Source of the DNA: Photobacterium aquimaris
GTDB taxonomy: Bacteria > Pseudomonadota > Gammaproteobacteria > Enterobacterales > Vibrionaceae
Length of the DNA: 64,000 nt
Direction: 5' to 3'
NCBI RefSeq assembly: GCF_002954455.1
Contig: NZ_MSCC01000001.1
Coordinates: forward strand, 184,951 to 248,950
In this document: in pieces, positions 38,901 through 57,622 of the stretch
Numbering within the stretch: the stretch's first letter is position 1
How the letters are laid out: each line of letters starts with the position of its first letter
The notes under the pieces: generated by a model
Database searches by the model: none
What the model was told of the DNA's origin: nothing
What the model saw: the letters and a program-made list of their open reading frames with translations, nothing else
Position numbers and translations under genes: made by a program

Positions 38901-39148
38901 ACAAGGTTCACGAAGGTCGTCCTCATATTCTTGACCGTATTAAGAATAATGAGTACACCTACATTGTGAATACTGCAGAGGGTCGTCAAGCGATTGAGGA
39001 TTCTAAGGTACTACGTCGTAGTGCTTTAGCTGAAAAGGTCAATTACACTACCACCTTGAACGCTGGTTTTGCGACTTGTCTGGCACACACTGCAGATGAC
39101 CGTAACACAGTAACATCGATTCAAGAACTGCATGGAATGATTAAGTAA
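35930..39148 (+). CDS. carB: Carbamoyl-phosphate synthase large subunit
   Basis: 1072-residue synthetase (E. coli 1073) with two homologous ATP-grasp halves. The carboxyphosphate half (residues about 1-400) has [17 protein letters not shown] and [11 protein letters not shown]; the carbamoyl-phosphate half (about 550-935) has [32 protein letters not shown] and [12 protein letters not shown]. The C-terminal MGS-like allosteric domain, which binds UMP/ornithine, starts near residue 937. GGGAG precedes the ATG. Operon with carA, closed by a terminator. Confidence 0.98.
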
Positions 39149-39173
39149 TCGTATTTCGATACATAATTAAATT

Positions 39174-39203
39174 AAAGCCGATCATGAAATGATCGGCTTT
39201 TTT
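39174..39203 (+). terminator. Terminator after carAB
   Basis: 12-bp perfect stem AAAGCCGATCAT/ATGATCGGCTTT with a 3-nt loop and a T-run. Confidence 0.9.
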
Positions 39204-39251
39204 ATTTGATAGCATTATCGCTTGTTGTGTTTTAGAAAATACTAGATTTGG

Positions 39252-39279
39252 TTGCAGCAATGTACTAATAGCGTACAAT
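39252..39279 (+). promoter_or_regulatory. Candidate promoter of the mgtE-like gene
   Basis: TTGCAG (39252-39257), 16-bp spacer, TACAAT (39274-39279). Transcription would start near 39286 and yield a leader of about 350 nt before the transporter start, including the mini-ORF and hairpins below. Confidence 0.55.
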
Positions 39280-39318
39280 GCAGTCGTCGCAGTAGGCGAT
39301 ATATTTTTGGAGATGTAA

Positions 39319-39369
39319 GTGAACGATACCGACCACCCCCCGAGTATGATGGTGGAAAATCAAGTCTAG
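39319..39369 (+). CDS. Candidate 16-residue leader peptide (MNDTDHPPSMMVENQV)
   Basis: A GTG start 6 nt after a GGAG Shine-Dalgarno opens a 16-codon frame ending in TAG. The predicted peptide has acidic residues near the start followed by two consecutive prolines. In E. coli/Salmonella, short Asp/Pro-containing leader peptides upstream of Mg2+ transporter genes (mgtL, mgtP) sense Mg2+ or proline-tRNA through ribosome behaviour. Here the frame lies between a promoter and an MgtE-like gene. Bases within it can pair with downstream segments (39326-39331 with 39373-39378; 39340-39344 with 39403-39407). Translation is inferred, not shown. Confidence 0.45.
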   Translation: MNDTDHPPSMMVENQV

Positions 39370-39409
39370 CAACGGTATTTGTAACAGTTCCGTGCTGCCA
39401 GGCTCGGAA
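39326..39409 (+). promoter_or_regulatory. Leader RNA with alternative pairings (possible attenuator or riboswitch-like element)
   Basis: Hairpin 1: ATACCG/CGGTAT (39326-39331, 39373-39378) encloses CCACC/GGTGG (39333-39337, 39351-39355). Hairpin 2: TTCCG/CGGAA (39388-39392, 39405-39409). The loop bases CCGAG (39340-39344) can pair instead with CTCGG (39403-39407), which excludes hairpin 2. Hairpin 1 and the loop overlap the mini-ORF, so a translating ribosome would disrupt them. It does not resemble the M-box consensus as I know it. Confidence 0.4.
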
Positions 39410-39499
39410 TAATATGTCCTTCTTTTAGTGCGATAACTTATCCACGATATTTTCCTCGATTTTCCCGTTTATATTTCAATGCAATTTGACTATTGAATA

Positions 39500-39569
39500 C
39501 CCTCAATACCAGTCTATTTATGGCTGTTATTAGCGGTAGGCCTAATGGTATGCCTGCTATAGTTGAGGG
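39500..39569 (+). promoter_or_regulatory. Nested stem-loop in the mgtE-like leader
   Basis: Outer stem CCCTCAA (39500-39506) with TTGAGGG (39563-39569); inner stem GTAGGC (39536-39541) with GCCTGC (39552-39557, one G-U). The element lies about 70 nt before the probable start codon and supports reading this stretch as untranslated leader instead of coding sequence. Confidence 0.4.
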
Positions 39570-39639
39570 CCAAGTTTTAAATTGTGACGGTCGCTACTTA
39601 TTACTCTTATTTGAGTATCAGTTAACCGGGAAACCTGTC

Positions 39640-40428
39640 ATGACAGTAATGAATTTTGCAGCCTATGCCGCTGCTGCAACAACTACTAACTTAGATCAAC
39701 GCGATGCTTTAGCTGTGCGCAATGCTTTTCTAAAATATGATTTAGATGAGCAAGCACAATTATTAGCAAAAATGGCCTTACCCGAAGCATTAGTCATGCT
39801 TCATGAATGCCCTTTACGCCATGTTCAATTATTACTTGATCGTCTTGATGAACGTAAAGAAGACGTTAAAGTGCGACAATTGGCTAATGGATTAGGGTTG
39901 ATTTGTTCTGAAGTTGAACCTGTAGGGCATTATTTACAAAATAGTGTATTTAGTCACGTGCGTGAACGCATTGGTTGGATTGTTGGTTTAGCTTTAATGG
40001 GCATTATTTCAGGTTTAATTATCTCTCATTATGAAGACACATTAAGCCAATTAGTGTTACTTGCGATTTATATGCCTGTGATAGCTGCTGCTGGTGGTAA
40101 TACAGGTTCGCAAGCAGCGACGCTTGTTGTACGTGCATTAGCGATGGAGGAAATACGATCTCGAGATTGGATGGCGGTCTTATGGAAAGAATTTCGTGTT
40201 TCATTAGTGATTGCGTTTGGACTAGCGGCTGTGATCGTTGGTCGAGTGGTATTCTTTAGTGGTCATGTGGTATCAACCAGTGCTGGGGGATTATTGCCAT
40301 TAATTGCGCGCGCATTTAACCTAGATCCTGCAGTGCTTGTAAGCCCCGTATTAGCTTCAATGGTTGATATTACAGGGATGGTTATTTATTTTAACACCAT
40401 TAATTGGATCCTTGGGTTAGGCCATTAA
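39640..40428 (+). CDS. Short MgtE-family divalent cation transporter
   Basis: 262-residue protein. A short cytoplasmic N-terminal part (about 1-110; QRDALAVRNAFLKYDLDEQAQLL) has no CBS pair. The MgtE membrane domain follows, with the ion-pathway signature IAAAGGNTGSQAATLVVRAL and the last-helix motif SPVLASMVDITGMVIYF. Four convincing membrane helices are seen, whereas MgtE has five; the link between the helix ending RVVFF and the GGLLPLIARAF segment looks about 20 residues short. ATGs at 39640 and 39649 are both possible starts; GGGAA lies about 9 nt before the first. A TTG at 39493 would translate across the leader hairpin and is rejected. Mg2+ as substrate is inferred from family. Confidence 0.75.
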   Translation: MTVMNFAAYAAAATTTNLDQRDALAVRNAFLKYDLDEQAQLLAKMALPEALVMLHECPLRHVQLLLDRLDERKEDVKVRQLANGLGLICSEVEPVGHYLQNSVFSHVRERIGWIVGLALMGIISGLIISHYEDTLSQLVLLAIYMPVIAAAGGNTGSQAATLVVRALAMEEIRSRDWMAVLWKEFRVSLVIAFGLAAVIVGRVVFFSGHVVSTSAGGLLPLIARAFNLDPAVLVSPVLASMVDITGMVIYFNTINWILGLGH

Positions 40429-50572: not shown

Positions 50573-50657
50573 GCCGAGATGGTGAAATTGGTAGACACGC
50601 TAGCATGAGGTGCTAGTGCCGTAAGGTGTAGGGGTTCAAGTCCCCTTCTCGGCACCA
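50573..50657 (+). tRNA. leuU: tRNA-Leu (anticodon GAG)
   Basis: 85-nt class II tRNA with long variable arm. Acceptor GCCGAGA pairs with TCTCGGC; anticodon loop contains GAG; the T-loop GGTTCAAGTCC and encoded CCA end are clear. It matches E. coli leuU in sequence and in its place after secG. Confidence 0.95.
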
Positions 50658-50670
50658 TTATACTGGTTAC

Positions 50671-50699
50671 TTGTAATAGTAACATCTGAACGGTATACT
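50671..50699 (+). promoter_or_regulatory. Promoter of initiator tRNA / rimP-nusA-infB operon
   Basis: TTGTAA (50671-50676), 17-bp spacer, TATACT (50694-50699). The predicted start near 50706 lies about 8 nt before the mature tRNA. Confidence 0.7.
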
Positions 50700-50714
50700 C
50701 AGTTCAGAATCGGA

Positions 50715-50791
<77 letters not shown>

Positions 50792-50884
50792 CTTTCCTGA
50801 AAATAGACTATTCTTACTTTTGAATGTTTGTTTTCTTACTAAGACACTTGCTTGCATGGTTTTAGTAATCAGGGTCCAGTAATA

Positions 50885-50911
50885 AAAACCCCGTATTCGG
50901 GGTTTTTTATT
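50885..50911 (+). terminator. First terminator between metY and rimP
   Basis: Stem AAAACCCCG/CGGGGTTTT with a tatt loop and T6 tail. Such leader terminators limit read-through from the tRNA into the nusA operon. Confidence 0.87.
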
Positions 50912-50941
50912 ATCTGAAACATGACCATTCAGGTATTTACT

Positions 50942-50961
50942 GGGCTTTATGCCCTTTTTTT
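50942..50961 (+). terminator. Second, short terminator-like hairpin before rimP
   Basis: A 4-bp GC stem (GGGC/GCCC) with a 5-nt loop is followed by seven Ts and ends 18 bp before the rimP start. Possible attenuator for rimP-nusA-infB. Confidence 0.5.
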
Positions 50962-57281: not shown

Positions 57282-57352
57282 CCGCGGCTTGGGTGTCGGC
57301 TGAATCAGAGATTGGCGGCACAAATTAAAACATCTTGTATTAGGAATGAGTT

Positions 57353-57622
57353 ATGTCTCTGAATGCAGAAACTAAAGCAGCAATCGTTGCAGATTACGCA
57401 CAATGTGAAAATGATACTGGTTCTCCTGAAGTTCAGGTTGCACTTTTAACAGCGCAAATCAACCACCTTCAAGGTCACTTTGCTAACCACAAGCACGACC
57501 ACCACAGCCGTCGCGGTCTACTACGTATGGTTTCTCGTCGTCGTAAGCTTCTAGATTACCTTAAGGGTAAAAACCTAGATCGTTACCAAGACTTGATCAA
57601 GCGTCTAGGCCTACGTCGCTAA
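57353..57622 (+). CDS. rpsO: 30S ribosomal protein S15
   Basis: 89-residue primary 16S rRNA-binding protein. Diagnostic residues: the [21 protein letters not shown] block, [26 protein letters not shown] and [13 protein letters not shown]. It has its own promoter and a strong terminator, giving a mono-cistronic transcript besides read-through into pnp. Confidence 0.97.

Follow-up and report, generated by a model that had tools for sequence, protein, structure and literature searches.

The DNA analysed here, referred to throughout as the window, is a 64,000-nucleotide (nt) stretch of the Photobacterium aquimaris genome (contig NZ_MSCC01000001.1, positions 184,951 to 248,950), in which the gene for a short MgtE-type transporter, mgtE, is preceded by a long leader that holds a small, unannotated open reading frame (mini-ORF). 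On sequence comparison this leader is almost certainly a cis-regulatory element with a translated mini-ORF, and it is very probable that the position of the ribosome on the mini-ORF switches the RNA between alternative folds. On balance we favour its reading as a translation-gated attenuator, in which the fate of the ribosome near the Asp-His-Pro-Pro codons decides whether a stretch resembling a Rho-utilisation site is masked. A translation-coupled cis-regulatory leader is strongly supported because the mini-ORF is conserved, its bases join helices that are incompatible with one another, and leader and gene co-occur nearly perfectly. Such a leader had been proposed in a first-pass annotation of the window alone, and the comparison with relatives, in which the reading frame proved to be conserved along with alternative pairings, did not refute that proposal; Mg2+ sensing stays an analogy.

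A conserved leader peptide upstream of mgtE

All features described lie on the forward (+) strand and are given in window coordinates. The mini-ORF (39319..39369) begins with GTG at 39319, six nt downstream of the Shine-Dalgarno sequence GGAG (39309..39312), and runs for 16 codons to a TAG at 39367-39369, encoding (M)NDTDHPPSMMVENQV; a further 270 nt of leader separate it from the mgtE start at 39640. The first-pass annotation had described this frame, its GGAG and its Asp- and Pro-Pro-containing peptide correctly, and a covariance model of the leader finds counterparts in 194 of 296 Vibrionaceae genomes. The transporter gene itself (39640..40428) encodes 262 amino acids (aa). The longer of its possible frames matches Pfam PF01769 (MgtE) at E=2.2e-24, residues 109-256 of the protein match solved MgtE chains, and TIGR00400 is matched only in part (E=1.1e-34; 120.1 bits, under the cut-off of 232.75). 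The start is most likely at 39640 rather than at TTG 39493, because ATG-[AG]Cx-GTA-ATG recurs there in relatives, whose starts were located by a letter pattern for that same motif.

Two collections of leaders underlie the comparison. The larger, 139 unique leaders, was gathered largely by a pattern over codons 1-8, so that conservation in those codons is circular within it. The second comprises 67 loci brought in by the MgtE protein, 13 of which (L278-L290) were chosen for divergence or for having no match; setting aside L280 (no start codon) and L290 (no match) leaves 65 rows, 63 of them unique.

Every one of the 139 leaders has a Shine-Dalgarno sequence that begins 9-11 nt before the start (GGAG in 137, GGAT in 2) and keeps both a start codon (ATG in 134, GTG in 5) and an in-frame stop. 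The frame is 11, 14, 16, 17, 18 or 19 aa long, and its tail varies in sequence as well as in length. Among the 63 unique gene-selected leaders, Asp5-x-Pro7-Pro8 is present in 62, the exception being the frameshifted L279, and the invariant residues are those that had been singled out from the window alone. Codon 5 is GAC in 62; codon 7 is CCT in 33, CCC in 29 and CTC in one, again L279; and codon 8 is CCG in 31, CCT in 20, CCC in 9 and CCA in 3, such that the proline codons of intact frames change only synonymously. Codon 2 is Asn in 59 of the 63; intact frames have Asn, Asp, Thr or Val at codon 3, and codon 6 encodes His in 55, Gln in 4, Asn in 2 and Tyr in 1. The peptide begins MN[ND]TDHPPS in most species, and TTTGGAGA-n-ATGAACGATACCGACCATCCCCCGAGTATGAAGGTGGAAAATC is little altered across the 34 aligned Photobacterium leaders. 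In L180 a 1-nt deletion, placed after the proline codons in the alignment, shortens the frame to MNNTDHPPVAG, a peptide shared by L183. Comparison thus shows a mini-ORF coding for M-N-x-x-Asp-(His)-Pro-Pro-Ser plus a variable tail to be under selection, and its conserved core is Asp-x-Pro-Pro early in a short frame.

Co-occurrence of leader and gene

The covariance model, built from 57 leaders, matches one copy per listed genome in the 194 Vibrionaceae genomes, and the short mgtE gene is present in 197 of the same 296. None of the 99 genomes lacking the gene has a leader match at E<=0.001. Three genomes have the gene without the leader: in G229 the mini-ORF is out of frame and the mgtE frame has 131 codons, in G240 there is no leader match and the mgtE frame has 119 codons, and in G259 (mgtE frame of 281 codons) the leader is degenerate, with CTG in place of the start codon and Asp-Ser-Pro-Pro still legible. 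In an order-wide sample leader and gene each occur in 24 of 375 genomes, the same ones by eye. One of these, G342, belongs to a family other than Vibrionaceae, and its leader reads MNDSDHPPSIKVGNNP. Within the genus, 35 of 52 genomes encode a short MgtE at E<1e-90, and the same 35, by eye, match the leader DNA. The model likewise matches 66 of the 67 gene-selected loci at E<=10, 65 of them at E<=0.00024, with L280 reaching only 0.31. As carB lies upstream in only 40 of the 113 leaders for which at least 1 kb of upstream DNA is available, the leader tracks the gene and not the locus.

Simple pattern searches give a similar picture. The pattern over codons 1-8, with up to two mismatches, occurs in 191 of the 296 Vibrionaceae genomes, some of these matches being off target (for example in G092 and G104), and a reversed control pattern yields 6 matches, spread over 5 genomes. 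Named genomes, when scanned, gave at least 119 stretches, 118 of them in Vibrio, Photobacterium, Enterovibrio or Salinivibrio; the other, L213, from a deltaproteobacterial metagenome-assembled genome, matches the pattern without an accompanying mgtE and was excluded from later counts. The search of viral contigs gave 0 matches.

Several genomes depart from the usual arrangement of the gene. G033 carries a second short MgtE paralogue of 53% identity (G033:C12:364124-364885), and the one leader that the covariance model reports there sits at the copy on G033:C10. In three Salinivibrio loci (L186, L187 and L239) and in V. xiamenensis (L155) the leader is kept and mgtE is replaced by a protein of 124-128 aa, which holds the N-terminal part of MgtE and one hydrophobic stretch; that it recurs with hardly any change in length points to a functional short form, not to decay. 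In V. diabolicus (L168), Vibrio sp. ES.051 (L197) and V. sonorensis (L228) the mgtE frame stops at 203-213 aa and the leader is intact.

Helices that cannot all form together

Counts for helix II, the long-range helix, base composition and the fold model refer, unless stated otherwise, to 89 representatives drawn at an 85% identity cut from the 130 leaders in which the mgtE start could be located by its letter pattern. The pattern failed for nine of the 139, four of which were too short (L220, L149, L157 and L209) and five unmatched (L137, L210, L175, L191 and L207). The stops of the shortened frames L180 and L183 were set by hand in these counts, as was the mgtE start of L001 (321, not the 201 given by the pattern).

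Helix P1 joins codons 3-5 of the mini-ORF (39325..39331) to a segment just after its stop (39373..39379), and is recognised from the letters and from covariation. Pairing holds in 89.5% of the cells compared, with 10-48% in slid controls, and 16 cells are changed on both sides, as opposed to 4.6 in shuffles, none of 500 of which reaches 16. In several species P1 is prolonged by a helix that covers the Shine-Dalgarno sequence of the mini-ORF itself, as in the duplexes of L134, L150 and L185. Within the frame, CCACC (39333..39337) can pair with GGTGG (39351..39355); support for this hairpin is moderate and its register differs between clades.

Helix II pairs the end of the mini-ORF, GGAAAATC (39354..39361), with GATTTTCC (39458..39465), which lies inside a C-rich, G-poor stretch. 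RNAalifold recovers it as GGAGAAAAAU with AUUUUUCUCC in 30 leaders, mostly Vibrio and including Salinivibrio, and as GGAAAAUC with GAUUUUCC-type sequence in 24 Photobacterium leaders, several positions differing on both sides between the two clades. Both sets had been preselected for the 3' motif, a step passed by 47 of 50 frames of up to 14 aa (30 used) and by 25 of 27 frames of 16 or 17 aa (24 used). Without preselection a helix of at least 8 base pairs (bp) is found in 84 of the 89 leaders (shuffle mean 54.9, maximum 62) and one of at least 10 bp in 46 (shuffle mean 15.2, maximum 21).

A long-range helix connects CGACC in the mini-ORF (39330..39334) with GGTCG near mgtE (39589..39593). Its 8-bp form, CGACCATC (codons 4-7) with G[AG]TGGTCG, is found in 78 of the 89 leaders, with a mean score of 20.2 compared with 14.4 after shuffling; in the window's clade only five contiguous bp remain, and L008 has one mismatch. 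Duplex energies are uninformative (-13.1 for own partners, -13.0 for partners swapped between species), and since both arms hardly vary the swap is no test of this helix. What supports it is the invariance of a box in non-coding sequence that, apart from an A/G wobble, is an exact complement of conserved codons, and not compensatory change.

In window coordinates two bases of P1 also belong to the long-range helix, and P1 crosses helix II; the hairpin within the frame has bases in common with each of these two helices, so that a nested fold holds either P1 and the inner hairpin or the long-range helix and helix II. Comparison thus shows the bases of the mini-ORF joining helices that, on the predicted pairings, are unable to form all at once. 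Neither helix II nor the link to 39589-39593 was part of the first-pass annotation, which had pointed to other pairings. Its loop segment 39340-39344 (CCGAG) is indeed complementary to 39403-39407 (CTCGG), and its hairpin at 39388..39409 is present and is seen again in the aligned Photobacterium leaders, where bases of the stem have changed. The idea of competing structures held up in kind: in the 24-leader RNAalifold the preferred partner of that hairpin's 3' arm is the tail of the mini-ORF, and some changes there are two-sided. The particular pairings proposed are in part not the best conserved ones, and a nested stem-loop at 39500-39569 does not survive in that form when the three nearest relatives, L003-L005, are folded. 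Folded alone, the window sequence shows nothing unusual (z of -1.10 and -0.70). A single RNAalifold run over the 89 leaders of all clades (-0.98 kcal/mol, at least 3 pairs) was set aside; tail lengths differ between leaders, and clade-wise alignments served better.

A proposed translation-gated attenuator

The 3' arm of helix II is embedded in a stretch (39434..39511) whose composition is that of a Rho-utilisation-like site. With a C/G ratio of 3.17 it is the leader's maximum, and it exceeds the 99.9th percentile (2.57) of 78-nt stretches on the + strand of the window. In relatives the 30-nt windows placed 45 and 60 nt after the mini-ORF stop average 0.27 C and 0.08-0.09 G, with more C than G in 99% and 98% of the 89 leaders, respectively. 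An intrinsic terminator, in the sense of a G+C-rich hairpin followed by a U-run, was not found between 39369 and 39640 in a scan made of the window only.

How ribosomes might act on these structures was modelled by folding ensembles of the 89 leaders with a ribosome represented as a 30-nt blocked footprint, a treatment that cannot handle coaxial stacking, pseudoknots or kinetics. The probability of helix II is 0.523 without a ribosome, with the C-rich block 0.446 unpaired, and rises to 0.652 with a ribosome at the start codon (block 0.419). With a ribosome at the stop it falls to 0.023, and the block is 0.549 unpaired (up in 67 leaders, down in 8). The window copy behaves like the others (helix II at 0.711 free, 0.724 with the ribosome at the start, 0.461 at Pro8 and 0.001 at the stop). 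The model favours an arrangement in which full translation would expose the Rho-like block and early pausing or ribosome loss would hide it.

One plausible sequence of events is as follows. Ribosomes would initiate on the mini-ORF, and those that translate to the stop would cover its 3' end (GGAAAATC in the window, GGAGAAAAAT in many Vibrio), preventing it from pairing with the C-rich stretch, which would be left open for Rho to load, and mgtE would not be transcribed. An early pause or drop-off near Asp-His-Pro-Pro would instead leave the 3' end free, helix II would mask the stretch and mgtE would be made. Pairing of codons 4-7 with the box near the mgtE start, like P1, may add further dependence on ribosome occupancy of the mini-ORF. 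Low cytosolic Mg2+ is the probable signal, if mgtL and mgtQ are a guide. We infer both the involvement of Rho and the polarity of the switch, and the argument for that polarity reverses if the short MgtE exports. Masking of the Rho-like site is a serious candidate for the main output, at a likelihood that we would place a little short of even, and Mg2+, by the same analogy, has an even chance of being the physiological signal.

Several observations weigh against this scheme or narrow it. The leaders are related sequences, and their counts are inflated by kinship. The number of P1 pairs showing two-sided change is only 3, a value matched by 33 of 500 shuffles in this less clear control, and the probability of P1 in the full-length ensemble without a ribosome is low (mean 0.211, median 0.008), so that P1, if active, acts during transcription. 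For helix II the per-sequence shuffles are modest, with 17 of 89 leaders beating all 40 of their shuffles and a mean z of -1.50. A ribosome at Pro8 weakens helix II to 0.159 and leaves the block 0.502 unpaired (up in 57 leaders, down in 10); plain stalling at Pro-Pro therefore fails to give the ON state, and a better fit is drop-off or a pause closer to the start. Asp occurs at codon 3 in only 33 of 139 leaders, the others having one acidic residue in codons 1-9 where mgtL and mgtQ have two. Both the long-range helix and the elements around the mgtE ribosome-binding site are weakened in the window's own clade. Finally, 11 of the 12 listed genomes with an mgtE frame of under 200 codons, many of them Salinivibrio-type, retain a leader match (G229 does not), and for this reason the joint decay of leader and gene in G229 and G240 is weak evidence.

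Alternative explanations

The leading competitor is translational control as in Salmonella mgtQ-mgtB, in which translation of the mini-ORF would alter pairing near the mgtE start and thereby open or close its ribosome-binding site, without Rho. In its favour, helix R, whose 5' arm CGCTACT (39592..39598) pairs in the window with AGTAATG (39645-39651) inside mgtE, encloses the Shine-Dalgarno sequence and the start; in relatives it reads CGTTACC with GGTAATG (mgtE codons 2-4), with all seven pairs in 131 of 144 unique leaders and six of seven in the window, and a C-G pair becomes U-A in L278 and also in the window's clade, which has a mismatch at another position. The box directly upstream is the one that pairs with mini-ORF codons 4-7 in 78 of 89 leaders. 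Outside the window's clade the Shine-Dalgarno stretch of mgtE, AATCGGGAG[AG]TT, hardly varies, and mgtQ is described as operating in this manner (PMC8092293). Against all this, accessibility of the site barely moves with the ribosome in the fold model (0.451 free, 0.451 with the ribosome at the start, 0.433 at Pro8 and 0.419 at the stop), and we consider translational control without Rho unlikely, if well ahead of the other rivals. An ermC-like variant, with the 3' arm of helix II as an anti-Shine-Dalgarno element, meets the same nearly constant accessibility and was kept as a rival only.

As a separate observation, in relatives such as L230 the mgtE Shine-Dalgarno sequence lies within AATC-GGGA-GATT, which can fold into a small hairpin with the site in its loop; the window counterpart (39624-39635) has diverged. 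The motif may have a separate role, as it is kept in L280, L283 and L284, where no long-range box was found.

M-box riboswitches control Mg2+ transporter genes, and their place upstream of such genes elsewhere invites the suggestion that the mgtE leader too binds an ion or other ligand, the reading frame being incidental. In favour of this, conservation covers most bases of codons 1-9, even at third positions. Yet the leader keeps its Shine-Dalgarno sequence, start and in-frame stop, the proline codons of intact frames vary only synonymously, and Asp-x-Pro-Pro survives a change at codon 6 where the long-range box is absent, L283 and L284 having Asn for His6 and retaining Asp and both prolines. 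The Rfam search that the first-pass annotation had recommended gave neither an M-box nor any other family in the leader at gathering scores, and a permissive scan of 39145-39760 returned eight matches, all below gathering score and none of them an M-box. Most of these weak matches fall on the carB terminator, and one, to SNORA7, covers part of the mini-ORF with a score far short of the cut-off; they were rejected. A riboswitch is thus quite improbable. Least credible of all is a trans-acting peptide, a small regulator either of MgtE itself or of something else, which the conserved peptide's position beside a transporter gene might suggest, given that the tail varies in sequence and brings the total to anything from 11 to 19 aa, that the conserved bases also pair, and that there is one copy per genome.

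Relationship to known leaders of magnesium transporter genes

Returning to the translation-gated attenuator, its logic, in which full translation exposes a Rho block, would be that published for mgtL, for which a Rho-dependent terminator is described whose accessibility hinges on full translation of the leader ORF (PMC11282234). Termination of the mgtL type is relieved at low Mg2+; what the mgtE leader shows in its place is the conserved C-rich, G-poor block. The likeness to the mgtL leader of mgtA lies in a short peptide with early acidic and proline residues, in a Mg2+ transporter leader and in competing folds. The window indeed has a short ORF with a Shine-Dalgarno sequence in the presumed transcribed leader of a Mg2+ transporter-type gene. 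It differs in having no EPDP motif, MNxTDHPPS bearing only partial resemblance to mgtL (Asp, Pro-Pro), and in its downstream gene, which is of the MgtE type and not mgtA, the latter encoding a P-type ATPase. The helices are also different, including as they do a link to the transporter start region, and the leader was found here in Vibrionaceae and, outside that family, in a single genome, whereas mgtL is enterobacterial.

Salmonella mgtQ-mgtB offers a second parallel. There, overlapping stems 1:2 and 3:4 alternate with 2:3, and low mgtQ translation accompanies high mgtB translation (PMC8092293); a very short ORF, acidic residues near its start and overlapping alternative stems are features in common. 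The leader described here has a stem that encloses the ribosome-binding site and alternative stems, without coupling of the site in the fold model, and where mgtQ has acidic codons 2 and 5, which hinder translation of that ORF, it has Asp at codon 5 (62/63) and mostly Asn at codon 2 (59/63). The mgtQ ORF is located inside an operon, acts through translation only and has a single Pro codon that matters for pairing only; in contrast, intact frames of the mgtE leader always encode Pro-Pro, their codons changing only synonymously, and the leader has a Rho-type stretch. The tandem attenuators of Salmonella mgtCBR, with short leader ORFs whose translation would be expected to steer stem-loops (PMC3641672), involve two ORFs and a different gene. 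M-box RNAs are set apart by the conserved reading frame seen here.

The best reading is that the leader resembles mgtL and mgtQ and had a separate origin. More specifically, though only tentatively, M-N-x-T-D-H-P-P-S may define a family of regulatory nascent peptides in Vibrionaceae, not described before, that evolved independently of mgtL and mgtQ to sense the state of translation, most likely ribosome stability at low Mg2+, its codons pairing either after their own stop or with the box at the transporter start 150-300 nt away, and its tail masking or exposing a Rho site. Among the open-licence PMC papers listed by literature searches, judged by title and opening lines of the abstract, none describes this leader. 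If the analogy holds, leader peptides that abort or pause translation came to control Mg2+ transporters on more than one occasion, with neither the genes nor the peptides related, and destabilisation of the ribosome would be a general bacterial gauge of Mg2+ and not an enterobacterial peculiarity. As the peptide is short and nearly invariant, pausing or release at Asp-His-Pro-Pro could be tested through natural variants at codon 6 (His, Gln, Tyr, Asn) and codon 3 (Asn, Asp, Thr, Val). Work on EF-P and EfpL exists in Vibrio campbellii and V. natriegens (PMC11611912).

Flanking and other features of the window

Upstream of the leader, a promoter-like pair (39252..39279) consists of TTGCAG (39252-39257), a 16-nt spacer and TACAAT (39274-39279), just as the first-pass annotation had read it. 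In the alignment of 34 Photobacterium sequences, the window copy among them, the columns cgTAnAAT and ttg stand out as well conserved, and the pair, scoring under threshold, was not reported by a consensus promoter scan. A hairpin near the presumed transcript start (39283..39300) appears terminator-like in the scan, and its CGTCGC..GCGAT recurs in relatives.

In the window carB and its terminator (39174-39200) lie upstream of the promoter-like pair. The 3' end of carB (39145-39206) carries a strong terminator hairpin with weak, sub-threshold matches to the Qrr and frnS models, and may be the counterpart of CarZ, a small RNA from the carAB 3' untranslated region of V. cholerae. Elsewhere in the window Rfam matches at gathering scores comprise an S15 leader, a rimP leader and two tRNAs (57292-57409, 50853-50961 and 50573-50788).

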